In this document: positions 6,030 through 24,386 of the stretch, in pieces
Layout of the letters: the number at the start of each line of letters is the position of its first letter
Numbering within the stretch: position 1 is the stretch's first letter
Assembly: GCA_947474755.1 (NCBI GenBank)
Contig: CANJJE010000003.1
Span: forward strand, 1 to 64,000
DNA: 64,000 nucleotides
Source: Burkholderiales bacterium
GTDB taxonomy: Bacteria; Pseudomonadota; Gammaproteobacteria; Burkholderiales; Burkholderiaceae_C
Direction of reading: 5' to 3'
Program-made: the position numbers and the translations under genes
Notes under the pieces: generated by a model
Told to the model about the DNA's origin: nothing
Database searches by the model: none
What the model saw: only the letters and a program-made list of their open reading frames with translations

Positions 6030-6380
6030 CTAGTGGCTGATCATCCACGGACGCTTGCCAGGAAACGTCTTGTCACCATTGGCGGCGCGCAAGGTCGCCC
6101 CGCGCCGACTGGAGTCTGTTGCGGAGCAGCAGCCGCACCCGGATGGATGCTTGAAGCGGGCGTAGTCGCGCGAGCTCCTGGGCTCATTCGAGGCCCGCTC
6201 GTTGATCTCGAGGGCTCTGCGCGTATCGCCCGCGAGCAGCGTCAGTCTTGGCGCACTGACGAACACACGCGGTGACTCGTGAGCGCAATCGGGACAGATG
6301 GCGGGCTCATTACGTGCGGCCAGCGTGCGAAATGCGTCGAAGCCTCCGCATGCAGGGCAGTCGTAGTCGTAGGTCGGCAT
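6030..6380 (-). CDS. fmdB: FmdB-family zinc-ribbon protein
   Basis: A 116-residue protein starting MPTYDYDCPACGGFDAFR, the signature N-terminus of the FmdB family. The first Cys pair is CPAC and the second CPDC, giving a zinc ribbon in the first 40 residues. A further Cys-rich GCGCC motif lies in the variable tail. An AGGAG site precedes the ATG. It sits 18 nt after fmdA. In Methylophilus FmdB was proposed to regulate the formamidase genes, but the biochemical role is not settled. The tail is longer and more polar than in the shortest family members. Confidence 0.88.
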   Translation of the reverse strand: MPTYDYDCPACGGFDAFRTLAARNEPAICPDCAHESPRVFVSAPRLTLLAGDTRRALEINERASNEPRSSRDYARFKHPSGCGCCSATDSSRRGATLRAANGDKTFPGKRPWMISH

Positions 6381-6398: not shown

Positions 6399-7631
6399 TC
6401 AGACGAGGTCGGGCGACAGCGGCATGTCGATCGAGCCGTCGAGATACTTCACCGGCCCGGCCGCATTCGGGTTGATGTCGAACTCGAAGATCTGCGTGGG
6501 CAGCCACAGCGTCGCACAGGCATTCGGAATATCGACCACCCCGCTGATGTGCCCCTGCACTGGCGCAGTCCCCAGGATCGAATGCGCCTGCGCTCGGGAA
6601 TACCCGAACCTGGTCAGGTACTCGATGGCATTCAGGCACGCCTGCCGGTAGGCCACGTGCACGTCCAGATAGTGCTGCTTGCCCCATTCGTCGACCGAGA
6701 TGCCCTCGAAGATCAGGTAGTCGTTGTAGGTCGGGGTGATCGGGCTGGGCTTGAAGATCGGATTCTTGATGCCGTACTTCGCCATGCCACCCTTCAGCAG
6801 GCTGACGCGCATATGCACCCAGCCCGCCATCTCGATGGCGCCGCAGAAGGTGATCTCGCCGTCGCCCTGGCTGAAGTGCAAGTCGCCAACGCTCAAGCCG
6901 GCACCGTCGACATAGACCGGGAAGAAGATCTTTGAGCCGCGCGACAAGTCCTTGATGTCGCAGTTGCCGCCATGCTCGCGCGGCGGTACGGTGCGCGCGC
7001 CCTCGGCTGCGGCCTTGGCTGCGGCATCGCCCTTGAGCTTGCCCATGTGGGCGGTTGCTGACGACGGCGGTACGGCCAGCGGCGGCACGCGGTGGGGATC
7101 GGTCGCGATGAAATCGCCCTCGCGCTTGTTCCACATGTCCAGCATCGGCTTGTCGGGCAGGCAGCCGATCAGGCCGGGGTGAATCAAGCCGGCGAAGTTG
7201 ACGCCTGGCACGTGGCGCGAGCTGGTGAACATGCCCTTGAAGTCCCAGATCGACTTCTGCGCCTGCGGGAAATGGTCGGTCAGGAAGCCGCCACCGTTCT
7301 TCTTGCTGAAGAACCCGTTGAAGCCCCAGAGGCTGTCGGGCTTGGCGCCGATGTCGAGCAGCTCAACCACCAACAGGTCGCCCGGCTCGGCGCCTTTCAC
7401 ACCCACCGGGCCCGACAGGTAGTGCACCGTGGTCAGGTCGATGTCGCGCACATCGTCGGCGCTGTCGTTGTTCTTGATGAATCCGCCGGTCCAGTCGAAG
7501 GTTTCGAGGATGAAGTCGTCCCCCGGCTTGACCCAGCAGGCCATCGGGATGTCCGGATGCCAGCGGTTGTGGATGTTCTCGTTGAGGGTGGGGGATTGGC
7601 TCAAGTCCACCTTGATCAGGGTGTCGGTCAT
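6399..7631 (-). CDS. fmdA: Formamidase / acetamidase (FmdA/AmdA family)
   Basis: A 410-residue cytoplasmic amidohydrolase that splits formamide and related short amides into ammonia and the acid. The start MTDTLIKVDLSQSP follows an AGGAG site. The longer ORF start lies inside the urtE gap and is not needed. Family hallmarks include the N-terminal NRWHPDIPMACWVKPGDDF block, the SGPVGVKGAEPGDLLVVEL segment and the SQGDGEITFCGAIEMAG segment. It lies 70 nt after urtE and 18 nt before fmdB on the same strand, so amide uptake and hydrolysis look co-expressed. The original FmdA system is also linked to an ABC importer for short amides and urea. Confidence 0.93.
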   Translation of the reverse strand: MTDTLIKVDLSQSPTLNENIHNRWHPDIPMACWVKPGDDFILETFDWTGGFIKNNDSADDVRDIDLTTVHYLSGPVGVKGAEPGDLLVVELLDIGAKPDSLWGFNGFFSKKNGGGFLTDHFPQAQKSIWDFKGMFTSSRHVPGVNFAGLIHPGLIGCLPDKPMLDMWNKREGDFIATDPHRVPPLAVPPSSATAHMGKLKGDAAAKAAAEGARTVPPREHGGNCDIKDLSRGSKIFFPVYVDGAGLSVGDLHFSQGDGEITFCGAIEMAGWVHMRVSLLKGGMAKYGIKNPIFKPSPITPTYNDYLIFEGISVDEWGKQHYLDVHVAYRQACLNAIEYLTRFGYSRAQAHSILGTAPVQGHISGVVDIPNACATLWLPTQIFEFDINPNAAGPVKYLDGSIDMPLSPDLV

Positions 7632-7701: not shown

Positions 7702-8391
7702 TCAGACGCAGAGGTATTGCTTGATGTGGGCGACGTCGGTGCCAGCACGGGTGGTCTCGTGGACCAGGCGGCCGCCTTCGATGACGAACAGGCGGTCGGC
7801 GACATCCATCGCGAAACTCAGCACCTGCTCGGAGACGATGATCGTGATCTCGCGCATCTTGCGGATCTCGTTCAGCGCCTTGGCGATGTCCTTGATGATC
7901 GAGGGCTGGATGCCTTCGGTCGGCTCGTCGAGCAGCAGCACCTTCGGGTTGGTGACCAGGGCGCGCGCGATCGCGAGCTGCTGCTGCTGGCCACCCGACA
8001 GATTGCCGCCCTTGCGGTTGCGCATGTCGAACAGCACCGGGAACAGCGCGTAGATCTCGTCAGGAATGCGCTTGTCCTTCGCGTTCTCGAGGCCGGTCTG
8101 GATGTTCTCGGTGACGCTCAGCGTCGAGAAGATCATCCGGCCCTGCGGCACGTAGGCGACCCCCTTGGCCACACGCTGGTAACTCTCGTCCTTGCTGATG
8201 TCCTGGCCATCGATCTCGATCGAGCCGGACTTCAACGCCAGGATGCCGATCAGCGACTTGAACAGCGTGGTCTTGCCCATGCCGTTACGGCCCATGATGG
8301 CCACGGTCTCGTTCTTGTTGGCGTGGAAGTCGATGCCGTGCAGCGCTTCGCTCTGGCCATAGCCGACATGCAGATTGGTGACGTTGAGCAT
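7702..8391 (-). CDS. urtE: Urea ABC transporter ATP-binding subunit UrtE
   Basis: A 229-residue ABC ATPase of the branched-chain amino-acid (LivF-like) type. Walker A is GRNGMGKTT, the signature is LSGGQQQQLAIARAL, and Walker B is VLLLDEPTEG. It starts at an ATG behind AAGGA, 26 nt downstream of urtD. With UrtD it powers the UrtBC permease pair. The LivF/UrtE subfamily is assigned from its place in the urtABCDE order and from the adjacent formamidase and urease genes. Sequence motifs alone would not separate it from a LivF. Confidence 0.92.
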   Translation of the reverse strand: MLNVTNLHVGYGQSEALHGIDFHANKNETVAIMGRNGMGKTTLFKSLIGILALKSGSIEIDGQDISKDESYQRVAKGVAYVPQGRMIFSTLSVTENIQTGLENAKDKRIPDEIYALFPVLFDMRNRKGGNLSGGQQQQLAIARALVTNPKVLLLDEPTEGIQPSIIKDIAKALNEIRKMREITIIVSEQVLSFAMDVADRLFVIEGGRLVHETTRAGTDVAHIKQYLCV

Positions 8392-8417: not shown

Positions 8418-9161
8418 TCAGTGACCCAGATACACATCAATGACCTTGGGATCGTTCTGCACCTGGTCCATCGACCCTTCGGCCAGGATCTTTCCCTGGT
8501 GCATCACGGTCACCTTGTGGGCGATCTGCTTGACGAACTCCATGTCGTGCTCGATCACGATCACCGCACGGTTCGCACAGATGCGCTTGAGCAATTCGGC
8601 TGTCAGTTCGCGTTCGCGCGCACTCATGCCGGCGATGGGTTCATCGAGCATCAGCAGCTCGGGTTCCTGCATCAGCAGCATGCCGATCTCCAGCCACTGT
8701 TTCTGGCCGTGCGAGAGCAATCCGGCTTCGGTGCCGAGCTTGTCCGAAAGGCCAATCTCCTCGGCCACCACCTGCACCTTGGCCTTGACCTCGTCGGTGC
8801 ACTTGAAAGCGAGTGCGCCCAGGACGGAGCGGCCCTTCGGGTACGACACCTCGAGGTTCTGGAACACGCTCAGGTTCTCGTAGATCGAAGGCGTCTGGAA
8901 CTTGCGGCCGATGCCCAGGCGCACACGCTTGTGCTCGGCCATCTTCGTCAGTTCGGTGTTCTTGAACTTGATGCTGCCACTGCTCGCGCGGGTCTTGCCA
9001 CAGATCAGGTCGAGCAGCGTGGTCTTGCCGGCGCCGTTCGGGCCGATGATCACGCGCAGCTCGTTCTTGTCGATGTACAGCGTCAGCATGTCGATGGCCT
9101 TGAAGCCGTCGAACGACACGGTCAGGTCTTCCACGGCCAGAGCGAAATCGGTGTTGCTCAT
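8418..9161 (-). CDS. urtD: Urea ABC transporter ATP-binding subunit UrtD
   Basis: A 247-residue ABC ATPase of the LivG-like type. Walker A is GPNGAGKTT. The signature region reads LLSHGQKQWLEIGMLL, the SHGQ variant typical of UrtD in place of SGGQ. Walker B is LLMLDEPIAG. The ATG follows a GGAG-containing site. It lies 19 nt after urtC and 26 nt before urtE, so the genes are translated from one transcript. It partners UrtE in ATP hydrolysis for urea or short-amide import at the inner membrane. Confidence 0.93.
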   Translation of the reverse strand: MSNTDFALAVEDLTVSFDGFKAIDMLTLYIDKNELRVIIGPNGAGKTTLLDLICGKTRASSGSIKFKNTELTKMAEHKRVRLGIGRKFQTPSIYENLSVFQNLEVSYPKGRSVLGALAFKCTDEVKAKVQVVAEEIGLSDKLGTEAGLLSHGQKQWLEIGMLLMQEPELLMLDEPIAGMSARERELTAELLKRICANRAVIVIEHDMEFVKQIAHKVTVMHQGKILAEGSMDQVQNDPKVIDVYLGH

Positions 9162-9180: not shown

Positions 9181-10386
9181 TCAGGCTTGTTGACCGTTCA
9201 GGCCGGGCGGCAACTTGCCGTCGTGATCCTTCGGCGGCTTCGTTGCCGGCTGGTCGGGGTAGGCGGCATGGGCCGCAGCGATCCGCTCGGCATTCGTGCG
9301 GCGATCGAGCTGGCGGCGTGCCCACCACGGCTTGATCTTGTCCTCGACCAGGCCCGCCAACCCCATCGGGAAGGCCATGGTCACACCGATGAACAACGCG
9401 GCCATCAGGAAGAGCCACAGATCCGGGAAGCTTTCAGAAAACAGCGTCTTGCCAGCATTCACCAGCAGCGCGCCGTAGACCGCACCGACCAGACTCATGC
9501 GCCCGCCCACTGCTGCATAGATCACCATCTCGATGGAGGGCACGATGCCCACGAAGCTGGGCGACATGAAACCCACCTGCAGCGCGAACAGCGCGCCACC
9601 GATGCCGGACAACCCCGCGGCCAGGCAGAAGGTGAAGATCTTGAAATCGGCCACGTCGTAGCCGGAGAAACGCACCCGGTCTTCCTTGTCGCGCATGGCC
9701 AGCAGCAGCGTGCCGCACTTGCTTTTCTGCACCCAGCGGCACAGAAGGATGCTGGCGATCAACAGGCCGACGCAGAGGAAGTACAGGATGTACTTCGCCT
9801 GGTCCGTTCGCGTGTCCCAGCCCAGCACCGTCTTCAGGTCGGTCATGCCGTTGACGCCGCCGGTGTAGCCCTGCTGTCCGATGATGAGCACCGTGACGAT
9901 CAGCGACACCGCCTGCGTGATGATCGCGAAGTACACGCCACCGACGCGCCGCTTGAACATCGCGTAGCTGATGACCCAGGCCAGCAGCATCGGCACCGCG
10001 ATCACCAGGATCAGCGTCAGGGGCAGGCTCTTGAACGGCAGCCAGAAGGTGGGCAGTTCGGTGATCTGGTTCCAGTCCATGAAGTCCGGAATGCCCGGCG
10101 TCGACTGGATCCTGGTGGTGATGGGATCGCTCGCTTCGAGCTTCAGGAACATCGCCATCGCGTAGCCGCCCAGGCCGAAGAAAACGCCCTGCCCCAGGCT
10201 CAGCACGCCGCCATAGCCCCACACCATCACCAGGCCCACCGCGACGAAGGCATAGGTCAGGTACTTGCCGACCAGGTTCAGCCGGAAGATGTCCAGGCTC
10301 AACGGCAGGACCACCACCAGCAGGATCGACAGCAGCAGCAGTGGCCCGAGACCCGATCGTTTCAAGCCATTCATCAAGGCGTTCAT
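9181..10386 (-). CDS. urtC: Urea ABC transporter permease UrtC
   Basis: A 401-residue LivM-like permease with about ten membrane helices beginning at GPLLLLSILLVVVLPLSL. The conserved permease motif region (GGVLSLGQGVFFGLGGYAMAM) is present, and the charged 60-residue C-terminal tail is common in UrtC. The start ATG follows GGAG by eight bases. It is 44 nt downstream of urtB. The tail ends in a Lys/Pro-rich stretch with no recognised domain. Confidence 0.92.
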   Translation of the reverse strand: MNALMNGLKRSGLGPLLLLSILLVVVLPLSLDIFRLNLVGKYLTYAFVAVGLVMVWGYGGVLSLGQGVFFGLGGYAMAMFLKLEASDPITTRIQSTPGIPDFMDWNQITELPTFWLPFKSLPLTLILVIAVPMLLAWVISYAMFKRRVGGVYFAIITQAVSLIVTVLIIGQQGYTGGVNGMTDLKTVLGWDTRTDQAKYILYFLCVGLLIASILLCRWVQKSKCGTLLLAMRDKEDRVRFSGYDVADFKIFTFCLAAGLSGIGGALFALQVGFMSPSFVGIVPSIEMVIYAAVGGRMSLVGAVYGALLVNAGKTLFSESFPDLWLFLMAALFIGVTMAFPMGLAGLVEDKIKPWWARRQLDRRTNAERIAAAHAAYPDQPATKPPKDHDGKLPPGLNGQQA

Positions 10387-10430: not shown

Positions 10431-11345
10431 TCATCGGCGCACCTTGACCGCGAACAGGCCTTGCGGGCGGATCATCAGGATCACGACGATCAACGACAGC
10501 GTCAGCACCTTGGCCATCGAGCCGCTCATGAAGAATTCGGAGATCGACTGCGTCTGGGCGATGCCGAAGGCTGAAGCCACGGTGCCGAGCAGGCTGGCGG
10601 CGCCGCCGAACGTCACGACCAGGAACGCATCGACGATGTACAGCGAGCCTGAGGTCGGCCCGGTCGATCCGATGGTGGTGAAGGCAGCTCCGGCAATGCC
10701 CGCGATGCCGCATCCGATGGCGAACGTGAGCCGATCGGTCTTCTGGGTATTGATGCCGGTGGCGTTGGCCATCGCCCGATTCGCCACCGTGGCGCGCACC
10801 CGCAGGCCCCAGCGGCTGCGATAGAGCGCCAGCATCACGGCGCCGGTGACGAACAGGGTCAGAGCGAGCACGAACATGCCGTTGATCGGAATGTCCAGGC
10901 CGGGGTGCGGCGACCAGGAGCCCAGCAGCCAGTCCGGCAAGGTGGGACTCACCTCTTTCGGGCCGATGAAGGAGCGGAAGCTCTGCTGCATCGCCAGGCT
11001 GATGCCCCAGGTGGCCAGCAGCGTGTCGAGCGGTCGCTTGTAGAGATGCCGTATCAGCGACCATTCGACGAACCAGCCGACGATGAACGCGAACACGAAG
11101 GCCACGCCGATCGCGATCAGGAAGTAGTACGGCATGAAGCTCGGTGCGAGCCTCTCGGTCAGCGTCGACGCCAGGAAGATGGTGTAGGCGCCGATCGTCA
11201 TGAACTCGCCGTGCGCCATGTTGATGACGCCCATCTGGCCGAAGATGATGGCCAACCCGAGTCCCATCAACAGCAGCACGGCGAACAGGCTGAGGCCTGC
11301 GAAGCCTTGCATCGTGGCGATGTTGAGCATGTCGGAAAAGGTCAT
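10431..11345 (-). CDS. urtB: Urea ABC transporter permease UrtB
   Basis: A 304-residue LivH-like permease. The chosen start MTFSDMLNIATMQGFAG matches the usual UrtB N-terminus. The ORF track adds eight residues from an upstream TTG, and no strong ribosome-binding site favours either. The motif GQMGVINMAHGEFMTIGAY is the conserved cytoplasmic loop of this permease class, and about eight membrane helices follow. A 73-bp gap to urtA contains a strong hairpin, which may reduce expression of the membrane genes relative to the binding protein. Confidence 0.92.
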   Translation of the reverse strand: MTFSDMLNIATMQGFAGLSLFAVLLLMGLGLAIIFGQMGVINMAHGEFMTIGAYTIFLASTLTERLAPSFMPYYFLIAIGVAFVFAFIVGWFVEWSLIRHLYKRPLDTLLATWGISLAMQQSFRSFIGPKEVSPTLPDWLLGSWSPHPGLDIPINGMFVLALTLFVTGAVMLALYRSRWGLRVRATVANRAMANATGINTQKTDRLTFAIGCGIAGIAGAAFTTIGSTGPTSGSLYIVDAFLVVTFGGAASLLGTVASAFGIAQTQSISEFFMSGSMAKVLTLSLIVVILMIRPQGLFAVKVRR

Positions 11346-11375
11346 GGCGGTGGCTCGCGTGCGTAACAAGGAGAA

Positions 11376-11419: not shown

Positions 11420-12682
11420 TTACTGGTAACCCTTGGGGAACGGATCGGGTTTGATCAGTTCAGGTGACTCCGCCACCACCTTGAAGGTGGCGTCAGGCTG
11501 GCCCTGTGCGATGCGCGAGCGGCTCCACAGGTGGTGGTTCGCGTCGAGCCTGACGTAGCCTTCGGGCGCCATCTTCAACTCGATACCGGGCGACGCGGCG
11601 ACGACCTTGTCGACGTCGAAGCTGCCGGCTTTCTCGACCGCTGCCTTCCACAGCCAGGCACCGAGGTAGGCGGCTTGCGTCACGTCACCGATCACCGAGG
11701 CCGGGCCGTACTTGGCCTTGAAAGCGGCGACGAACTTCTTGTTGTTCTCGTTGTCGAGCGACTGGAAGTACTTCATCGACGAGTAGAAACCGGTGAAGTT
11801 CTCGCCGCCCACGCCGGTCATCTCGTCTTCCGTCACCGACAGCGTCAGCAGGAGCTGCTTGTCGCCGGTGATGCCCGCAGCCTTGAGCTGCTTGTAGAAC
11901 GCGACGTTGGAGCCGCCGACCACGGCCGCGAAGATGCAGTCGGGCTTGGCCACCTTGATCTTGTTGATCAGCGAGTTGAAGTTGGTGTTGCCCAGCGGGT
12001 AGTACTCCTCGCCGACCACCTTGCCCAGCTTGCCCACGGTTTCGATGTGCTTGCGCGCGATCTTCATCGAGGTGCGCGGCCAGATGTAGTCGGAGCCGAT
12101 CAGGAAGAAGGTCTTGGCCTTTTTCTCTTTCGAGGTCCAGTCCAGGCCGTACAGGATCTGCTGCGTGGCCTCCTGGCCGGTATAGATCACGTTCTTGCTC
12201 TGCTCCAGCCCTTCGTAGAAGGTCGGGTAGTACAGCAGTCCGTTTTCCTTCTCGAACACCGGCAGCACGGCCTTGCGGGAGGCACTGGTCCAGCAGCCGA
12301 ACACGGCGGCCACGCGGTCATTGACGAGCAGCTTCTTGCTCTTCTCGGCGAAGGTCGGCCAGTCTGATGCGCCGTCTTCCTTGATGACCTTGATCTTGCG
12401 GCCGAGGATGCCACCCATGGCATTGATCTGATCGATCGCCAGCTGCTCGGCCTGGATCGAGCCGGTTTCCGAGATCGCCATCGTGCCCGTGGCCGAGTGC
12501 AGCTGGCCGACCGTGACTTCGGTGTCGGTGACCGCGAGCTTGGTGGTGTTGACCTTGGCGGTGGGATAGGTTTGCGCCATCGCCCACCCGGGCACGGCAG
12601 CCACGGGCAGCGACGCGATGCCCTGGATCAGGCGGCGGCGGTTGACTGAGAGAGAAGATGAATCATCACGATCGTTCGACAT
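11420..12682 (-). CDS. urtA: Urea/short-chain amide ABC transporter substrate-binding protein UrtA
   Basis: A 420-residue periplasmic binding protein. The true start follows an AGGAG site. The 536-aa ORF in the track extends upstream without support. The N-terminus carries a Tat-type signal (NRRRLIQGIASLPVAAVPG). The mature protein has the urea-binding family features LHSATGTMAISETG near the start, AVFGCWTSASRKAV, and GLDWTSKEKKAKTFFLIGSDYIWPR. It is the first gene of urtABCDE-fmdAB and is transcribed divergently from the NCS1-kinase gene. The ligand could be urea, formamide or both. Confidence 0.94.
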   Translation of the reverse strand: MSNDRDDSSSLSVNRRRLIQGIASLPVAAVPGWAMAQTYPTAKVNTTKLAVTDTEVTVGQLHSATGTMAISETGSIQAEQLAIDQINAMGGILGRKIKVIKEDGASDWPTFAEKSKKLLVNDRVAAVFGCWTSASRKAVLPVFEKENGLLYYPTFYEGLEQSKNVIYTGQEATQQILYGLDWTSKEKKAKTFFLIGSDYIWPRTSMKIARKHIETVGKLGKVVGEEYYPLGNTNFNSLINKIKVAKPDCIFAAVVGGSNVAFYKQLKAAGITGDKQLLLTLSVTEDEMTGVGGENFTGFYSSMKYFQSLDNENNKKFVAAFKAKYGPASVIGDVTQAAYLGAWLWKAAVEKAGSFDVDKVVAASPGIELKMAPEGYVRLDANHHLWSRSRIAQGQPDATFKVVAESPELIKPDPFPKGYQ

Positions 12683-12859
12683 GGTGGCTCCTGCGGTGGT
12701 CTCGAAGGCGGGGCGGATTGCACTTCGCTTGAGACGCATGGTGCTCAGGAACACGCTCGGATCGAATACGTCAATCAACGTAGACCGCCGTGCGGCAACG
12801 CCGTCAGCATCGAATCCGGTCCTTGAACAAAGCGGAACGTTTCTTGCCCGCCTTCCGGT
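12683..12859. promoter_or_regulatory. Divergent control region between urtA and the NCS1-kinase gene
   Basis: The 177-bp gap separates two oppositely transcribed units and must carry both promoters. A stretch with local AT enrichment lies around 12760-12785. I could not identify a convincing sigma-54 (GG-N10-GC) or NtrC site by eye. The kinase start codon is GTG with only a weak upstream purine run. Confidence 0.4.
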
Positions 12860-15800
12860 GTGCACACCGAATCGATCCCACCCCCGCCCGCCTTGACTGC
12901 CGCCACGCAGAAGATCTTCCGCATCCGACGCGACTACAACGCCTGGGTGGCCGACGAGTCGATGGAGGACTACGCGCTGCGCTACACACCGCGCAGCTTT
13001 CGCAAGTGGTCGGAGATGCGGGTGGCCCACACCGCGTTTGGTGCGGTGTCGTTCCTGGCGCTGGAGGCCATTGGCGGCGCGATCGCACTGAACTACGGCT
13101 TCACCAACGCGCTGTGGGCGATCCTGACGGTGGGGCTGATCACCTTCCTGACCGGGCTGCCCATCAGCTACTACGCCGCCCGCTACGGCGTCGACATGGA
13201 CCTGCTGACGCGAGGTGCCGGCTTCGGCTACCTGGGCTCGACCATCACCTCGCTGATCTACGCCAGCTTCACCTTCATCTTTTTCGCGCTCGAGGCGGCC
13301 ATCATGGCGCTGGCGCTGCAGATGTTCTTCGACATCCCGATCGCCTGGTGCTACGTCATCAGTTCGCTGGTGATCATCCCGATGGTGGTACGCGGCATCA
13401 CGCTGATCTCCAGGCTGCAGATGTGGACGCAGCCGGTGTGGGGGGTGCTGCTCCTGCTGCCGTATCTCGCCATTTACTGGAAGAACCCGCAGGCGTACTC
13501 GGATTTCATGGGGCTGAGCGGCCGCACCTCGGGCAGCAGCGACTTCGATCCGCTCATGTTTGGTGCGGCAGCGACGGTGGCGTTCTCCTTGGTGGTGCAG
13601 ATCGGCGAGCAGGTCGACTTCCTGCGCTTCCTGCCCGAAAAGACCGCGGCCAACCGCAGCCGCTGGTGGACGGCCGTGCTGATGGCGGGGCCGGGCTGGA
13701 TCATCCCGGGCATGCTGAAGATGCTGGGCGGCGCGTTTCTCGCCTTCCTGGTGCTGCAGCTTGAGCTACCGGCCGCCAAGGCAATCGAGCCGACACAGAT
13801 GTACCTCGCGGCCTATGGCTACGTGTTCACCGATCCGGCCTGGGTGCTGGCTGCCACCGTCATCTTCGTCGTGGTGTCGCAGGTCAAGATCAACCTGACC
13901 AACGCCTATGCCGGCTCGCTGGCCTGGTCCAACTTCTTCGCGCGCCTGACGCACAGCCACCCGGGGCGCGTGGTGTGGCTGGTGTTCAACGTGCTGATCG
14001 CGGTGCTGCTCATGACGCTGGGCGTCTTTCAGGCGCTTGAAAAAGTACTCGGGCTGTACAGCAACGTCGCGATCGCCTGGGTGGGCGCGCTGGTGGCCGA
14101 CCTGGTCATCAACAAGCCGCTGGGGCTCAGCCCGAAGGGAATCGAATTCAAGCGGGCACACCTCTACGACATCAACCCGGTGGGTCTGCTGTCGATGCTG
14201 TTGGCGGCAGCGCTCGCGGTGGTGGCCTATGCCGGCACACTGGGGCCGCAGGCAGAGGCTTTCGCACCGTTCATTGCGCTGATCACCGCCCTGGCACTGT
14301 CGCCCATGCTCGCGTGGTTGACAAAAGGCCGCTACTACATTGCACGTCAGCCACAGGTCATCGGAAATCCGGGGCAGGTGCTGAAGTGCAGCGTCTGCGA
14401 GAACCGCTTTGAAGCCGAGGACATGGCGCATTGCCCGGCCTACAGCGCACCGATCTGCTCCTTGTGCTGCACGCTGGAATCGCGCTGCCATGATCGATGC
14501 AAGACCGGCTCGCGTGCAGCCGAACAGGCCGAAGGCCTGCTGACCTCGCTTCTGCCCACATCGCTGTCGAACCGGGTGAACTTCCGCGTTGGCCACTATC
14601 TTGTGGTGGTGCTGTCGCTGTGCACATTGCTGGCGGTGGTGATGGCGATGGTCTACACGCAGCAGGTCGGGCCAGATCTGTCGATCGATACCCAGCTGCT
14701 GCTGAAATCATCGTTCGTCAAGGTGTTTGCGATGCTCCTGCTGGTCGTCGCGGTGTGCAGCTGGTGGGTGGTGCTGGGCAGCGAAAGCCGCCGCCTGGCG
14801 CAGGATGAATCGAACCGGCAGAACCAGCTGCTGCAGCGCGAGATCGAGGCCCACTCGCGCACCGATGCGGCCTTGCAGGCAGCCCGCGATGTGGCCGAAT
14901 CGGCCAACCAGGCCAAGACCCGCTACGTGGCCGGCATGACGCATGAATTGCGCACGCCGCTCAACAGCATCCTCGGCTACTCGCAGATCCTGTTGAAGGA
15001 CGAAGCGCTGGCGACGAACCCACGCGAGGCGGTGCAGACCATCCAGCGCAGCGGCGAACACTTGCTGGCACTGATCGATGGACTGCTCGATCTGGCACGC
15101 ATCGAGGCCGGCCGCCTGCAGCTCGAACCGATGCCGCTGCACCTCCCGGACTTCCTCGATGAGCTTGTGCGCATGGTCAGCCCTCAAGCCGAGGCCAAGG
15201 GGCTGGCTTTCGTCCACACGCGCGCAGGCCATTTGCCGACCTGGGTCAAGGCCGATGCGAAGCGCTTGCGCCAGATCCTGATCAACCTGCTGGCCAATGC
15301 GGTGCGCTTCACCGACACCGGCACGGTCACGCTGCACGTCGATTCGCGCAAGCAGGTGGTGCGCTTCGACGTGGTCGACACCGGCGTCGGCGTGCTGCCG
15401 CAGGACCGTGAGCGCATCTTCCTGCCCTTCGAGCGGGGCGCCGCCGGGCGACGGCAAGGCGGCGAGCCCGGCACCGGTCTCGGGCTGACGATCACCGCCC
15501 TGCTGACCTCGCTGATGGGTGGCGATCTCACGCTCTCCAGCACCTCAGGCCAGGGCAGCACCTTCAGCGTGAGGGTCTACCTGACCGAAACCGCCGACCC
15601 GGGACCGCTGCGCGAAATGCCGCGGCAGATCGTGGGCTACTTCGGCGAGCGGCGCACGCTGCTGGTCGTCGATGACCAGCCTGTGCAGCGGCAGATGCTG
15701 GCCGGAATGCTGATCCCGCTGGGCTTCGCAGTTCGAGAAGCGGCCAGTGGGGCCGAGTGCCTGGCCAGTCTGCACGAGTCGGTACCAGACGCCATCCTGC

Positions 15801-16279
15801 TCGACATCACGATGGACGACATGGACGGCTGGCAGGCGGCGACGCATCTGCGCACGGCCGGCTACACCGATGTGCCGATCATCATGGTGTCGGCCAATGT
15901 GTTCGAGAACCAGGTGCAGCGACTTCGTTCGGCGCAGTGCCAGGCTTTCGTGGCCAAGCCGGTGCTCGAGTCTGAACTGATCGCCGCACTGCACCGCACG
16001 CTCGGTCTGGAATGGCGAGCGACCGGCGCGTCCAGCCTTCCGACCGAGGGGACCGATCCCGATTCGGCCGGTCGCCTGGAACTCCCCGACAGTGTGCGCA
16101 CCGACCTGCTGCGGCTCGCGCGGGTCGGCCATGTGCGAGGGCTGCAAACTGCCCTCGATGACATCACCGAAGCAGACCCGTCGCTGGCGGCGGCATGCAC
16201 CCGGCTGCGCGGTCTGGTCAGCCGCTTCGAGATGGGCCGACTGCAAACCCTGCTGATGGACGAAGCCGAACTCACCTGA
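12860..16279 (+). CDS. NCS1 permease-hybrid histidine kinase fusion (transporter-type sensor)
   Basis: An 1139-residue protein that begins with GTG. Residues about 20-500 are an NCS1 cytosine/purine/allantoin permease domain with roughly twelve helices (LALEAIGGAIALNYGFTNAL, LLTRGAGFGYLGSTITSLIY). Residues 510-546 hold a Cys-rich knuckle (CSVC, HCP, CSLCC, CHDRC). Two more helices follow near 577-599 and 618-640, then a coiled coil. The HisKA box is MTHELRTPLNS with phospho-acceptor His695, and the ATPase lobe has the N box INLLANAVRF and the G boxes DTGVGVLP and GTGLGLTI. The C-terminal receiver has acidic residues 938-939 and phospho-acceptor Asp982. It faces urtA divergently and is followed after 2 nt by a LuxR regulator. 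It likely senses a nitrogen compound through the permease fold. Transport activity is uncertain. Confidence 0.92.
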   Translation: MHTESIPPPPALTAATQKIFRIRRDYNAWVADESMEDYALRYTPRSFRKWSEMRVAHTAFGAVSFLALEAIGGAIALNYGFTNALWAILTVGLITFLTGLPISYYAARYGVDMDLLTRGAGFGYLGSTITSLIYASFTFIFFALEAAIMALALQMFFDIPIAWCYVISSLVIIPMVVRGITLISRLQMWTQPVWGVLLLLPYLAIYWKNPQAYSDFMGLSGRTSGSSDFDPLMFGAAATVAFSLVVQIGEQVDFLRFLPEKTAANRSRWWTAVLMAGPGWIIPGMLKMLGGAFLAFLVLQLELPAAKAIEPTQMYLAAYGYVFTDPAWVLAATVIFVVVSQVKINLTNAYAGSLAWSNFFARLTHSHPGRVVWLVFNVLIAVLLMTLGVFQALEKVLGLYSNVAIAWVGALVADLVINKPLGLSPKGIEFKRAHLYDINPVGLLSMLLAAALAVVAYAGTLGPQAEAFAPFIALITALALSPMLAWLTKGRYYIARQPQVIGNPGQVLKCSVCENRFEAEDMAHCPAYSAPICSLCCTLESRCHDRCKTGSRAAEQAEGLLTSLLPTSLSNRVNFRVGHYLVVVLSLCTLLAVVMAMVYTQQVGPDLSIDTQLLLKSSFVKVFAMLLLVVAVCSWWVVLGSESRRLAQDESNRQNQLLQREIEAHSRTDAALQAARDVAESANQAKTRYVAGMTHELRTPLNSILGYSQILLKDEALATNPREAVQTIQRSGEHLLALIDGLLDLARIEAGRLQLEPMPLHLPDFLDELVRMVSPQAEAKGLAFVHTRAGHLPTWVKADAKRLRQILINLLANAVRFTDTGTVTLHVDSRKQVVRFDVVDTGVGVLPQDRERIFLPFERGAAGRRQGGEPGTGLGLTITALLTSLMGGDLTLSSTSGQGSTFSVRVYLTETADPGPLREMPRQIVGYFGERRTLLVVDDQPVQRQMLAGMLIPLGFAVREAASGAECLASLHESVPDAILLDITMDDMDGWQAATHLRTAGYTDVPIIMVSANVFENQVQRLRSAQCQAFVAKPVLESELIAALHRTLGLEWRATGASSLPTEGTDPDSAGRLELPDSVRTDLLRLARVGHVRGLQTALDDITEADPSLAAACTRLRGLVSRFEMGRLQTLLMDEAELT

Positions 16280-17214: not shown

Positions 17215-17217
17215 AGC

Positions 17218-17233
17218 AGGCCGCACGCGGCCT
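17218..17233 (+). terminator. Short GC-rich hairpin after the response regulator
   Basis: The sequence aggccgcacgcggcct folds into a six- to seven-base stem four bases after the stop codon. No T-run follows, so termination would be weak or Rho-dependent. It may partly separate the sensor pair from ureA, which starts 75 nt later. Confidence 0.3.
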
Positions 17234-17307
17234 CTCGCACTGAGCCACTTCTCGCCGCCGACACCGACCGCTACCATCACACGACCCACGAATTACCCGA
17301 GCCTCCG

Positions 17308-17610
17308 ATGGAACTGACCCCTCGCGAAAAGGACAAGTTGCTGATCTTCACGGCCGCACTGCTGGCCGAACGCCGTCGCGCTCGAGGGCTCAAGCTGAAC
17401 TACCCGGAAGCAGTCGCGCTGATCAGTGCGGCGATCATGGAAGGTGCGCGCGACGGCAAGACCGTGGCCGATCTGATGAGCGACGGCAAGCTGGTGCTCA
17501 CGCGTGCCGACGTGATGGACGGCGTGGCTGAACTGATCCCCGAGATACAGATGGAAGCAACCTTCCCCGACGGCACCAAGCTGGTGACCGTGCACCAACC
17601 GATCACCTGA
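17308..17610 (+). CDS. ureA: Urease subunit gamma
   Basis: A 100-residue protein of exactly the usual UreA length, starting [20 protein letters not shown] and containing the conserved [21 protein letters not shown] and [26 protein letters not shown] segments. It is a structural subunit of the cytoplasmic nickel urease (urea to ammonia and carbamate). It is followed after 23 nt by a 53-aa ORF and then ureB. Position 3' of the sensor pair suggests nitrogen control. Confidence 0.97.
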
Positions 17611-20150: not shown

Positions 20151-21230
20151 TCAAGCCACCGCCGGAAACGCGATCAGGTGGTCCATGTCGAGGCGGATGC
20201 CGATGGCTTCGCCGATGCGGTGGTTGTGGTGCGAGGGCACCATCGACAGCACGCGCATGCCGCTGGCGAGTTCGAGCGTGTAGAGGATCTGCGCGCCCCT
20301 GAACGCCTTGTGCCGCACGATGGCCTGCACAGGGCTGGTGTCATCGTGCACCACGTCGTCCGGGCGAAGCAGCACATCGACATGGCTGCCAGCGGGGCAC
20401 GGCCTGCCATCGGGCGCATAACGGATGGTCTCGGTGGCTGACACCGAGCCGATCTCGATCGCGAGCTGCCGCTCGGCCACCACGGTGCCGCGCACGAACA
20501 CGCCCTGGCCGATGAAGTCCGCGACGAATCGACTGGCCGGGCGGTGATACAGGTTGTAGGCGGTGTCGATCTGCTGGATGCGTCCGTCGGACATCACCGC
20601 GACCTCGTCGGCCATCGCGAACGCCTCGTTCTGATCGTGGGTGACGAACACCGCGGTAGTGTTTGTCGCCTTCAGGATGTCGCGCACTTCGGCGGCGAGT
20701 TGTTCGCGCAAATCGACGTCCAGGTTCGAGAAGGGCTCGTCCATCAGCAACAGACGCGGCTGCGGCGCCAGCGCACGGGCGAGCGCCACACGTTGCTGCT
20801 GTCCGCCGGACAGCTCGTGAGGGAAGCGCTGCGCCTGGGACCGCAAGCCGACCATGTCGAGCAGCCGCTGCACGCGAGCCTGGTCATCGGCGCTGCCGCG
20901 CGTTCCGAAAGCGACATTGCGCTCGACGCTCAAGTGCGGGAACAGCGCATAGTCCTGAAACACCATGCCGATGCGGCGCTGCTCGGGAGGCAGGTGGCGG
21001 CCCGGACCGCTGACCTGCTCGCCCGCGATGCGGATGTCACCGCCGGACAAGGGCTCAAAGCCACCGATGCAGCGCAGCACGGTTGTCTTGCCGCAGCCCG
21101 AGGGCCCGAGCAGGCAGCAGATGCTGCCGATGGACAGCGTCAGGTTCAGCCCATCCACCGTGACACGCGCACCGTACGCATGGCGCACGGCGTTCAGGAT
21201 CAGGACAGGGATGGAATTCGGGGTGGTCAT
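20151..21230 (-). CDS. fbpC: Ferric iron ABC transporter ATP-binding protein FbpC
   Basis: A 359-residue ABC ATPase of the FbpC/PotA type. The start MTTPNSIPVLILNAVRHAYG is preferred over an upstream alternative with no support. Walker A is LLGPSGCGKTT, the signature LSGGQQQRVALARAL and Walker B LLLMDEPFSNLD. The D-loop and switch His (AVFVTHDQNEAFAMAD) are intact. A C-terminal TOBE-like region of about 120 residues matches the FbpC subgroup. It is transcribed divergently from fbpB across a 187-bp gap and ends eight bases from the palindromic element. Confidence 0.88.
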   Translation of the reverse strand: MTTPNSIPVLILNAVRHAYGARVTVDGLNLTLSIGSICCLLGPSGCGKTTVLRCIGGFEPLSGGDIRIAGEQVSGPGRHLPPEQRRIGMVFQDYALFPHLSVERNVAFGTRGSADDQARVQRLLDMVGLRSQAQRFPHELSGGQQQRVALARALAPQPRLLLMDEPFSNLDVDLREQLAAEVRDILKATNTTAVFVTHDQNEAFAMADEVAVMSDGRIQQIDTAYNLYHRPASRFVADFIGQGVFVRGTVVAERQLAIEIGSVSATETIRYAPDGRPCPAGSHVDVLLRPDDVVHDDTSPVQAIVRHKAFRGAQILYTLELASGMRVLSMVPSHHNHRIGEAIGIRLDMDHLIAFPAVA

Positions 21231-21417
21231 GGTTGAGGCCGAGATCACGGGGATGCGACGCAGTGTCTCCGATGCGCGCAAGGGCCATGGTCAATCACGC
21301 TGAACGGTCGAGACCGGTCTGCCATGGGCATCATCGAGGGCAGGCAATACCCTGCGCGAGCCGTACACTGCCTGCGAATCAATCGCGTTCACTATGCCGT
21401 GCGATGATATCCCTCGC

Positions 21418-23109
21418 ATGACTGCCACCCTGTCCTCCCCTGCGTCGTCGACCCCCGTGGCCGGTCGGCAACAGGCCGGATGGCTGAGCTTGGCCACGGC
21501 GGTGGTGGCACTGCTTGTCGCGCTACCGATCATTTCGGTGGCCACGAACGTGTTCTCGACGGGCACCTCCGGCACCTGGTCGCACCTGGCATCCACGGTG
21601 CTGCCGGAGTACATCGGCACAACGCTGTGGCTGTGCCTCGGGGTCGGCAGCCTGGCTGCGCTGGTCGGCGTCGGCACGGCCTGGCTGGTCACGCATTTCG
21701 ATTTCCCGCTGCGCAGCAGCTTCGAGTGGGCGCTCGTGCTGCCACTGGCAATGCCAGCCTATGTGATGGCCTATGCCTACACCGATCTGCTGCAGTTTGC
21801 CGGCCCGCTGCAGAGCTGGCTGCGCGCGACGATGGGCTGGACGCGCGCCGATTACTGGTTTCCCGACGTGCGCACGCTGGGCGGGGCGGTGGTGATGTTC
21901 ACCTTCGTGCTGTACCCGTATGTGTTCATGCTCGCGCGTACGGCCTTCATGGAACGCGGCGCAGCGGTCATCGAGGCCGGGCGCTCGTTGGGGCTGTCGC
22001 CTCGGCAAAGCTTCATGCGCGTGTCGCTGCCGATGGCTCGGCCCGCCGTGGCGGCGGGCGTGGCGCTGGTGCTGATGGAAACGCTTGCCGACTACGGCAC
22101 GGTTTCCTACTTCGCGGTGCAGACCTTCACCACCGGCATCTACCGCGCCTGGTTCTCGCTGGGCGACCGGGTGGCTGCCGCGCAATTGGCAATGTGTCTG
22201 CTCGGCTTCGTCGTCCTGCTGCTGGCACTGGAGCGGCAGTCACGCGGCGGAGCCCGCTTCCACGGCAGTGGGCTGCGTCGCCAGCCCTCCCGCGGCGCAC
22301 CGCTGACCGGGTTGCGGGCCTCGGTGGCGATCACGCTGTGCGTGCTGCCGATCCTCATCGGCTTCCTGCTACCCGCTGGCGTGCTGCTGCACCTGGCCAT
22401 GACGGAGGGAGATACGCAGTTCGGCACCCGCTTCCTGACCCTCGCCAGCAACAGCGTCGTGGTGTCCGGCCTGACCGCCCTGCTCGCGGTGGCGCTCGCA
22501 CTGCTGGTCGCCTACGCCCGACGACTCGAACCGTCGCCGCTGACCCGCTCGGCGCACTGGGCGGTGGGCCTGGGCTATGCGCTGCCGGGGTCGGTGATCG
22601 CCGTCGGCGTGCTGATTCCAATGGCTCGGATGGACAACGCGCTGGCCCAGTGGCTGCAAGCCAGCTTCGGCTGGCAAACAGGGCTGCTGTTTACCGGGAC
22701 CATCGCCGCGCTGGTGTTCGCCTGCCTCGTGCGCTTCATGACCACCGCACTGCAGACCGTCGATTCATCCCTGTACCGCGTCACGCCTCACATGGATGAC
22801 GCTGCACGCAGCCTCGGCCTGACGCCAGCCCGCACGCTGCGTCGCGTGCACCTGCCGCTGCTGCGGCGCGGCCTGCTGACTGCCGGGCTGCTGGTCTTCA
22901 TCGACGTGATGAAGGAACTGCCCGCCACGCTGGTCATGCGCCCGTTCAACTTCGATACGCTGGCCACTCAGGCCTACACACTGGCGTCTGACGAGAGACT
23001 GGCCGAAGCGTCGACGGCCACGATCGCCATCGTGGCCGTCGGCCTGCTGCCGTTGATCGTGCTGTGCCGGCAGATCGCGAGCGAGCGGCGACAGCTGGCG
23101 CCGAATTGA
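21418..23109 (+). CDS. fbpB: Ferric iron ABC transporter permease FbpB
   Basis: A 563-residue fused permease with two copies of the binding-protein-dependent permease domain, about twelve helices in all. The EAA-type motifs are EAGRSLGLSPRQSFMRVSLPMA in the first half and DAARSLGLTPARTLRRVHLPLL in the second, as in the FbpB/SfuB family. The start could be ATG 21418 or ATG 21394. Neither has a good ribosome-binding site, and 21418 gives the more typical N-terminus. It converges on fbpA, whose stop is 23 nt away. The fbp genes are thus arranged fbpC < > fbpB ... < fbpA rather than as one operon. Confidence 0.88.
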   Translation: MTATLSSPASSTPVAGRQQAGWLSLATAVVALLVALPIISVATNVFSTGTSGTWSHLASTVLPEYIGTTLWLCLGVGSLAALVGVGTAWLVTHFDFPLRSSFEWALVLPLAMPAYVMAYAYTDLLQFAGPLQSWLRATMGWTRADYWFPDVRTLGGAVVMFTFVLYPYVFMLARTAFMERGAAVIEAGRSLGLSPRQSFMRVSLPMARPAVAAGVALVLMETLADYGTVSYFAVQTFTTGIYRAWFSLGDRVAAAQLAMCLLGFVVLLLALERQSRGGARFHGSGLRRQPSRGAPLTGLRASVAITLCVLPILIGFLLPAGVLLHLAMTEGDTQFGTRFLTLASNSVVVSGLTALLAVALALLVAYARRLEPSPLTRSAHWAVGLGYALPGSVIAVGVLIPMARMDNALAQWLQASFGWQTGLLFTGTIAALVFACLVRFMTTALQTVDSSLYRVTPHMDDAARSLGLTPARTLRRVHLPLLRRGLLTAGLLVFIDVMKELPATLVMRPFNFDTLATQAYTLASDERLAEASTATIAIVAVGLLPLIVLCRQIASERRQLAPN

Positions 23110-23132
23110 CCCCCCGATGCACAGCAAGAGGC

Positions 23133-24170
23133 TCAGCGCCAGCCCGCGCGGTCGTAGATGCGCTGTGCCTGAGCGGCGTTGGCGGCGAGTTGCCCGATTG
23201 GCAGCGTGTCCGGCTTGAAGGATCCCAGCGCCTCGAGCGCCGGGTTCTTGACCTGCGCGGTCTTGACGACCGGCCACTCGTTGTTGCCGTCGGCGAAGTA
23301 GGCCTGAGCTGAGTCACTGGTCAGGTACTCGAGGAACTTCAGCGCCGAGGCCCGGTTTGGCGCGTACCGGGTGATGCCCGCACCCGATACATTGATGTGC
23401 GCACCCCAGGTCTTCTGGTTCGGCCAGACGACTCCCAATGCCCGCACGACCTGCTGGTCTTCCAGCTTGGTCGAACGCATCAGACGGGCGAGGTAATAGC
23501 TGTTCGAGATCGCCACACCGCATTCACCCGCGGCAACGGCCTTCAACTGGTCGGTGTCGCCGCCCTTGGGCGCCCTGGCAAAATTTGCGACCAGGCCTCG
23601 CACCCACTCTTCGGTCTTCGCCTCGCCCTCGTGCGACAGCATGGCCGCGCCCAGCGACAGGTTGTAGGGGTGTGCGCCGGACCGCACACAGACCTGATTC
23701 TTCAACCGCGGTAGCGCCAGGTCTTCGTAGGTCTGCACCCACTCGGGGTTGACCGTGGCCTTGGCATAGACGATGACCCGTGCGCGCGTCGAGAACGCAG
23801 CCCAGTTCGGCGTTCGCAGCGCCGCTGGAATGCGCGCCTCGATCAGCGCCGACTTCAGCGGCTGGAACAGTCCGGCCTTGTCCGCGATTTCCAGGCGCGA
23901 GGCGTCGACCGTGATCAGCAGGTCGGCCGGACTGCTGGCGCCTTCGTTCTTGAGGCGCTCGAGCAGTTCTTCTTCCTTGCCATCGAGCCGGTTGATCTTG
24001 ATGCCGGTCTGCCTCGTGAAGTCGGTGTACAGCGCCTCGTCGGTCTGGTAATGGCGCGCCGAGTAGATGTTGAGCTCGCCCTGCGCGTGCGCCAGTGGAG
24101 TGGCCAGCAAGGCAAACAGCGCGCCAGCGGCAACGGTGCCGGCATCAAGGATGGATTTCAGACGAATCAT
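23133..24170 (-). CDS. fbpA: Ferric iron ABC transporter substrate-binding protein FbpA
   Basis: A 345-residue periplasmic protein. The start is ATG 24170, giving a signal peptide IRLKSILDAGTVAAGALFALLATPLAHAQ. The mature protein begins GELNIYSARHYQTDEALYTDFT, a hallmark of FbpA/FutA iron-binding proteins. The tyrosine pair that binds Fe3+ is visible in SNSYYLARLM. It is upstream-regulated by a candidate Fur box 64-82 bases before the start codon. It is transcribed divergently from ureE, so the iron genes interrupt the urease cluster. Confidence 0.9.
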   Translation of the reverse strand: MIRLKSILDAGTVAAGALFALLATPLAHAQGELNIYSARHYQTDEALYTDFTRQTGIKINRLDGKEEELLERLKNEGASSPADLLITVDASRLEIADKAGLFQPLKSALIEARIPAALRTPNWAAFSTRARVIVYAKATVNPEWVQTYEDLALPRLKNQVCVRSGAHPYNLSLGAAMLSHEGEAKTEEWVRGLVANFARAPKGGDTDQLKAVAAGECGVAISNSYYLARLMRSTKLEDQQVVRALGVVWPNQKTWGAHINVSGAGITRYAPNRASALKFLEYLTSDSAQAYFADGNNEWPVVKTAQVKNPALEALGSFKPDTLPIGQLAANAAQAQRIYDRAGWR

Positions 24171-24233
24171 GGACGGGCCTCGGTATGTCAGTCGCGGAAA
24201 CTGAGAATCAGACAGCAGAAACAGAACTGTATA

Positions 24234-24252
24234 CGAAACCATTCTCATTAAC
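24234..24252 (-). promoter_or_regulatory. Candidate Fur box upstream of fbpA
   Basis: On the minus strand the 19-mer starting GTTAATGAGAATGG matches the classical Fur consensus GATAATGATAATCATTATC at 12 of 19 positions, with 10 of the first 12 identical. It lies about 64 bases upstream of the fbpA ATG. A TATACA hexamer that could be the -10 follows at once. The match is moderate and rests on reading by eye. Confidence 0.45.
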
Positions 24253-24386
24253 ATTCCGTGTATGCGCGTGACTGTTGGTGGTTCGACGCCACTCCCGGCG
24301 CTGATATCTTTCTTGCTGCGGTCCGCACTCATGCCAGACTCTTGGCCTTCTCAACTGCTCCAACTGCGCCGCAGGCGCTCACCGAC

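Follow-up and report, generated by a model that had tools for sequence, protein, structure and literature searches.

A protein of 1139 residues in which an NCS1-type permease domain is fused to a hybrid histidine kinase is encoded in a 64,000-nucleotide stretch of DNA from a Burkholderiales bacterium (GCA_947474755.1, contig CANJJE010000003.1, positions 1-64,000 of the forward strand; hereafter the window). Based on the results presented below, this protein is probably a transporter-derived sensor kinase for small amides, with formamide as the first candidate and urea as the second, and it would act through a LuxR-type regulator encoded directly downstream. The reading frame, which uses a GTG start (the start codon is uncertain) and ends in TGA, runs uninterrupted from the permease through the HisKA, HATPase and receiver domains, just as a first-pass annotation of this DNA had described, and the dedicated LuxR regulator named there is also in place. 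A frameshift or assembly join between permease and kinase had been raised as an objection. In fact, another 58 full-length homologues have the fusion without interruption, and a strong kinase match lies within a long frame in 38 of 299 sampled Pseudomonadota genomes; with dozens of genomes showing an intact frame, the fusion is not an assembly join.

Comparison of the 59 full-length proteins (the window protein and its 58 homologues) shows that the catalytic parts are complete. HisKA (residues 685-751), HATPase_c (799-908) and Response_reg (935-1044) all score well above the Pfam cut-off, and the H box, the N and G boxes and the receiver Asp and Lys are intact in all 59, as in a hybrid HisKA kinase. 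The domain order shown by these searches and the predicted structure is NCS1 permease, eight-cysteine module, transmembrane (TM) hairpin, coiled coil, HisKA, HATPase and receiver (REC). Neither the cysteine module nor the TM hairpin had been remarked on in the first pass, and the same is true of fmdA and fmdB, which lie beyond the urt genes.

The permease domain, its pocket and the cysteine module

Pfam recognised nothing in the first 680 residues of the kinase. PF02133 (Transp_cyt_pur) matched neither this protein nor any other in a whole-genome scan, so that of the Pfam domains expected by the first-pass annotation only HisKA, HATPase_c and Response_reg were recovered; neither phmmer nor a profile search with the NCS1 part matched any PDB sequence. 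Because PF02133 is silent on the window protein, NCS1 membership was shown via intermediates and structure. Residues 32-497 of the window family align in hhalign with five standalone permeases (the group of locus L103) at a probability of 99.9% (E=1.5e-35). The L103 permease itself scores 36.4 bits against PF02133, and a permease from Klebsiella that shares 45% identity with the sensor domain scores 37.7 bits (cut-off 23.5 for both); the profile of the L103 group further matches the cytosine permease CodB in the PDB (7qoa). In a Foldseek search with the AlphaFold2 model of residues 1-755 (predicted local distance difference test, pLDDT, 86.7), CodB (2.7e-10) and Mhp1 (5.6e-10) came ahead of all other folds. 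An SSF (SLC5) domain was not matched by Pfam in the kinase, and in the fold search the SLC5 structures come after those of NCS1. The sensor's membrane domain is thus confirmed as a member of the NCS1 family (TC 2.A.39) by profile homology and by its modelled 12-TM fold, and the twelve-helix permease of the first-pass annotation holds.

A comparison of the substrate residues with Mhp1 had also been proposed, and its outcome does not favour a hydantoin-type ligand. In a joint alignment, which has less than 20% identity to Mhp1 and a one-residue gap near Asn318, Trp117 and Gln121 of Mhp1, which we take to hold hydantoin, correspond to Phe141 and Glu145, and Ser312, presumably a Na+ ligand, corresponds to Lys343. 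Only Asn318 is kept (as Asn348, with an indel), and neither the Na+ site nor the nucleobase/hydantoin-binding residues of Mhp1 are otherwise preserved. On the other hand, all fused proteins have Glu145 and Lys343, which standalone permeases retain, and Asn348 is invariant as well. It is likely, as far as such alignments can tell, that sensor and permease have a Na+-independent pocket in common.

Between permease and kinase no Pfam domain, and hence no STAC linker, was found; the cysteine module and the TM hairpin occupy that place. Cysteines 510, 513, 525, 533, 536, 537, 543 and 547 are present in 59/59 proteins. The fold of the module is uncertain, and weak signals suggest a two-metal treble-clef finger: Prok-RING_1 hits the module below cut-off in 8/45 members (best 0.0065), and RING, PHD and FYVE structures lead the Foldseek list at insignificant E values (0.45 or worse). 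In 399 Pseudomonadota genomes, the group to which statements on this module apply, its profile gave strong matches only in family-like long frames (894-1365 aa), together with one marginal short match. Standalone relatives in Klebsiella, Moraxella and Acinetobacter have a shortened CxxC...CxxC version and terminate inside the module.

The unit formed by the NCS1 domain, the cysteine module and the hairpin is joined to a different HisKA kinase without a receiver in loci L109, L110 and L151, to PAS-PAS-HisKA-HATPase-REC in L156, and to PAS-GGDEF-EAL in L155 (G528:C3:74000-93000), a cyclic di-GMP version of the sensor found in one genome only. With outputs as varied as kinases and GGDEF-EAL, this unit is, judging from the sequences, a portable input module. 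A wider proposal, which we consider tentative and rather doubtful, is that it may be a general portable transceptor of Pseudomonadota, which would both move and sense formamide or urea, with a metal-bound cysteine domain coupling the transporter to the output, and which would plug into hybrid, NtrB-like and PAS kinases and GGDEF-EAL proteins. As to whether the standalone permease or the kinase fusion came first, two rooted trees disagree, and their outgroup branch is very long.

Linkage to formamide and urea genes

A scan with one genome per species yielded 72 loci, whose hosts range from Burkholderiales to Methylobacterium and Acidiphilium. Every kinase locus from the genome collection with at least 7 kb upstream carries fmdA, the most constant neighbour, nearly always accompanied by fmdB and urtEDCBA and divergent from the kinase-regulator pair; urease is near in a minority. 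In the even sample of 299 Pseudomonadota genomes used for linkage statistics, the kinase occurs in 38, FmdA in 31 and both in 30, with FmdA lacking the kinase in a single genome. The kinase is thus present in 30/31 FmdA genomes versus 8/268 others (Fisher 9e-33, a value overstated by the relatedness of the genomes, which are not independent, in a pattern that spans alpha-, beta- and gammaproteobacteria). Urease (ureC) is much commoner (101/299 genomes) and less tightly linked to the kinase. Around 43 kinase genes, fmdA lies within 20 kb in 30, ureC in 12 and either in 40; the other three are close to contig ends or in fragmentary assemblies. Formamidase, which had not been named in the first pass, is thus the constant partner, with urease recurring beside other copies of the kinase; in this clade urease adjacency is incidental.

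The window itself contains a formamidase together with a binding-protein-dependent importer, with FmdA and UrtA-E above the NCBIfam cut-offs, that is, an fmd/urt amide-urea uptake cluster (Table 1).

Table 1. Coordinates of the NCS1-hybrid kinase, its domains and the neighbouring features in the window
Feature	Position	Strand	Basis or remark
NCS1-hybrid histidine kinase, 1139 aa	12860..16279	+	continuous frame; Pfam HisKA, HATPase_c, Response_reg
NCS1-type permease domain, residues ~20-495, 12 TM helices, LeuT/NCS1 fold	12917..14344	+	hhalign; AlphaFold2 and Foldseek
Eight-cysteine module C-x2-C-x11-C-x7-C-x2-CC-x5-C-x3-C	14381..14506	+	eight Cys in 59/59 proteins
Extra TM hairpin, residues ~575-640, leading to long coiled-coil helix	14582..14779	+	AlphaFold2 helices 575-602, 609-713; hydrophobic stretches
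HisKA, phospho-acceptor H695	14912..15112	+	Pfam; H695 in 59/59
HATPase_c	15254..15583	+	Pfam; N809, N813, D840, G842, G844, G871, G873, G875 conserved in 59/59
Receiver domain, D982 and K1033	15662..15991	+	Pfam; both residues in 59/59
Response regulator: receiver, ill-defined middle, LuxR/GerE helix-turn-helix	16282..17214	+	Pfam Response_reg, GerE; alternative start 16309
Predicted operator TACGTCAATCAACGTA	12767..12782		divergent urtA/kinase promoter; dyad conserved
urtA, substrate-binding protein, urea/short-chain-amide ATP-binding cassette (ABC) transporter	11420..12682	-	TIGR03407 above cut-off; start codon
urtB permease (start uncertain)	10431..11369	-	TIGR03409
urtC permease	9181..10386	-	TIGR03408
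urtD ATPase	8418..9161	-	TIGR03411
urtE ATPase	7702..8391	-	TIGR03410
fmdA formamidase	6399..7631	-	NF045496, 766 bits
fmdB, zinc-ribbon putative regulator of formamidase	6030..6380	-	PF09723 Zn_ribbon_8 above Pfam cut-off; conserved beside fmdA

The ligand is pointed to by REPLACEMENTS: the types of enzyme and importer vary between loci, while the formamide/urea chemistry is constant. The formamidase on the Klebsiella plasmid is AmiF, of the nitrilase family and unrelated to FmdA; an AmiS/UreI channel stands in place of Urt in Paracoccus and two other loci; and a standalone NCS1 permease takes the importer's place beside fmdA in L152 and Acidiphilium. In Moraxella such a permease adjoins fmdA without a kinase. 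The standalone permeases next to ureDABCEFG (Klebsiella) and fmdA (Moraxella, Acidiphilium, L152) are 45-56% identical to the sensor domain and have the same pocket residues. Consequently, the concern that homologues of the two parts might be separate genes unlinked to urea finds no support, except in Acinetobacter baumannii (L148), where the kinase-regulator pair and a single NCS1 permease gene are transcribed divergently on either side of a near-perfect palindrome, and where neither formamidase nor urease is present in the fetched stretch.

Several relatives deserve mention in their own right. The sensor domain is related to the 'cytosine permease' encoded directly after ureG in K. pneumoniae (L113:7941-9548), for which transport of urea or an amide is more likely. 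A standalone NCS1 permease that is more distantly related is clustered with a carbon-nitrogen hydrolase and AmiC/AmiR-like proteins (L103:5949-10984), which suggests amide transport. The kinase, together with a regulator frame and the palindrome (11865), forms part of the urea transport ('UTS') cluster on a Klebsiella pneumoniae plasmid (L115, NZ_LR890370.1), and the permease domain has matches in 342 Klebsiella plasmid records. Carriers of the permease-kinase include many soil and plant bacteria and some clinical ones.

Downstream in the window, an ABC transporter resembling ferric-iron uptake systems (ATPase, fused permease and binding protein; 20151-24332) splits the urease operon between ureC and ureE, and its ATPase is found at the same place in the close relatives L001 and L044. 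No ureD was found by tblastn with two UreD proteins, either beside ureA (17215-17310) or elsewhere in the window; most urease operons differ in this respect. The same genome encodes a second NCS1-hybrid kinase (L108:8782-12423, contig C22) with its own regulator and a permease domain 68% identical to the first. Its relatives in sister genomes adjoin ureABC, and in L108 itself the TACG palindrome is missing and the recognition helix differs.

A predicted operator in the divergent promoter

A palindrome is located between urtA and the kinase gene, at distances of 85 bp and 78 bp from their respective starts. Among 97 urtA/kinase intergenic regions, the dyad TACGT-N6-ACGTA is present in 76, versus 0.1 expected from shuffles, and the looser core TACG-N8-CGTA in 90. 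Across the fetched loci, some of which are duplicates or closely related, the density of TACGY-N6-RCGTA is 1.6 per kb in promoters but 0.0056 per kb outside them, an approximately 280-fold difference, and the whole 3.06 Mb genome contains one exact copy of the palindrome. It is kept where a permease replaces urtA (L148 and L152), and where fmdA is separated (L112) it sits upstream of fmdA. It is absent beside the swapped kinases (L109, L110, L151, L155 and L156) and where no kinase adjoins (L113 and L153, with only an imperfect match 8 kb away in L114). In addition, the regulators of L108 and L111, two loci without the palindrome, carry the recognition helix PATVKKHLE instead of PRTVNKHLE. From this co-occurrence and small covariation we infer that the palindrome is the operator of the LuxR-type regulator. 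A second site was not found at the urease genes of the window, which leaves a direct response of urease to this palindrome unsupported, and the divergent promoter contains no convincing sigma-54 site.

Signalling, alternatives and related systems

From the architecture, the neighbours and the palindrome described above, a mechanism may be proposed for ligand, signal and DNA binding. Formamide or urea would bind the NCS1-fold pocket, in which Glu145 stands for Gln121 of Mhp1 and Lys343 may fill the Na+ site. The resulting conformational change would pass through the cysteine module, probably metal-bound, to the TM hairpin and the coiled coil, and would alter phosphorylation of H695. Phosphate would then reach the LuxR-type regulator, which would bind TACGY-N6-RCGTA and activate urtABCDE-fmdAB, and probably its own operon too. 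No Hpt domain was found, and for this reason the REC domain of the kinase probably tunes signalling.

Several observations weigh against this proposal. Formamide, urea and other short-chain amides cannot be told apart by genomic association; the counts overstate the independent evidence, since many of the loci are closely related; and the pocket mapping suffers from the low identity and the gap mentioned above. As for the operator, there are exceptions: L158 has the PRTVNKHLE helix yet no palindrome, and some kinase copies near urease, for example in L111, lack the palindrome despite a related regulator.

The strongest alternative, to which we give roughly one chance in three, is that the NCS1 domain is a working permease whose transport the attached kinase reads or controls (a flux sensor), so that the protein would both take up the amide and signal its presence, an arrangement also proposed for CbrA. 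The close standalone permeases beside fmdA and ure genes, presumably transporters, share its pocket residues, and CbrA, which transports histidine (PMC7918813), has a Lys in its Na2 site (PMC13022988), the site that Lys343 appears to occupy here. On the other hand, the comparable fusion Ks-Amt5 has lost transport (PMC5764959), and transport by the sensor would be redundant, given that the kinase gene nearly always has a dedicated ABC importer as a neighbour.

A reading in which the signal bypasses the NCS1 domain altogether is unlikely; the permease would then be an inherited anchor, and either the cysteine module would sense metal or redox conditions or a ligand would act within the cell after import. 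The invariance of all eight cysteines and the occurrence of the module with kinase and cyclic di-GMP outputs alike would fit such a role, but Glu145, Lys343 and Asn348 are invariant too, which is unexpected for an anchor; moreover, the neighbours are amide genes rather than metal or redox genes, and the cysteine-bearing tail is also present in standalone permeases. Finally, the sensor of a nitrogen compound suggested by the first-pass annotation agrees with the recurring amide and urea genes, but its purine, hydantoin or other nucleobase-related ligand is very improbable: known NCS1 members do carry nucleobases, hydantoins and allantoin, and some standalone relatives are annotated as cytosine or allantoin permeases, yet these adjoin urease and formamidase, the hydantoin-holding residues are replaced, and no nucleobase-catabolic gene recurs in the annotated neighbourhoods.

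A sensor kinase for small amides, if correct, has implications beyond this genome. Transporter-kinase fusions are described as rare, and the literature cases found use SLC5 and Amt domains, to which an NCS1 class is now added; no description of an NCS1-kinase fusion was found in open-access papers, a search in which absence is not proof. The class is present in approximately 13% of sampled Pseudomonadota species (38/299) yet hidden, because its members carry the annotation 'ATP-binding protein' and their permease part escapes Pfam. It provides one domain in matched sensor and transporter forms, which could serve to test the transition from transporter to receptor, as well as a candidate regulator with a predicted operator for formamide and urea use, a use reported to be inducible.

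The resemblance to CbrA pointed out in the first pass is real at the level of a LeuT-fold transporter joined to a nutrient-responsive histidine kinase, a design also seen in CrbS (MxtR), which is likewise a hybrid kinase. These SLC5-STAC kinases differ in their SLC5 domain, their STAC and PAS linker and their ligands, histidine or acetate, whereas the present protein has an NCS1 domain, an eight-cysteine module with a TM hairpin, and probably amides as ligands. Ks-Amt5 is similarly a transporter repurposed as a sensor of a nitrogen compound and fused to a HisKA kinase (PMC5764959), but it has the trimeric Amt fold and neither a cysteine module nor a receiver domain. CodB and Mhp1 have the same fold (the best Foldseek matches) and belong to the same sequence family via intermediates; they lack signalling domains, and their Na+ site and substrate residues are replaced in the sensor. 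The fmdCABDEF and urtABCDE-fmdA clusters of Methylophilus and of the Klebsiella plasmid, which serve uptake of short-chain amides and urea, consist of the same kinds of structural genes, and the Methylophilus cluster is reported to be induced by formamide and urea (PMC10781810). No sensor kinase has been described for these clusters, and the UTS papers (PMC5506382, PMC13060141) are silent on the adjacent kinase; the regulatory half of the Klebsiella cluster has thus been overlooked.

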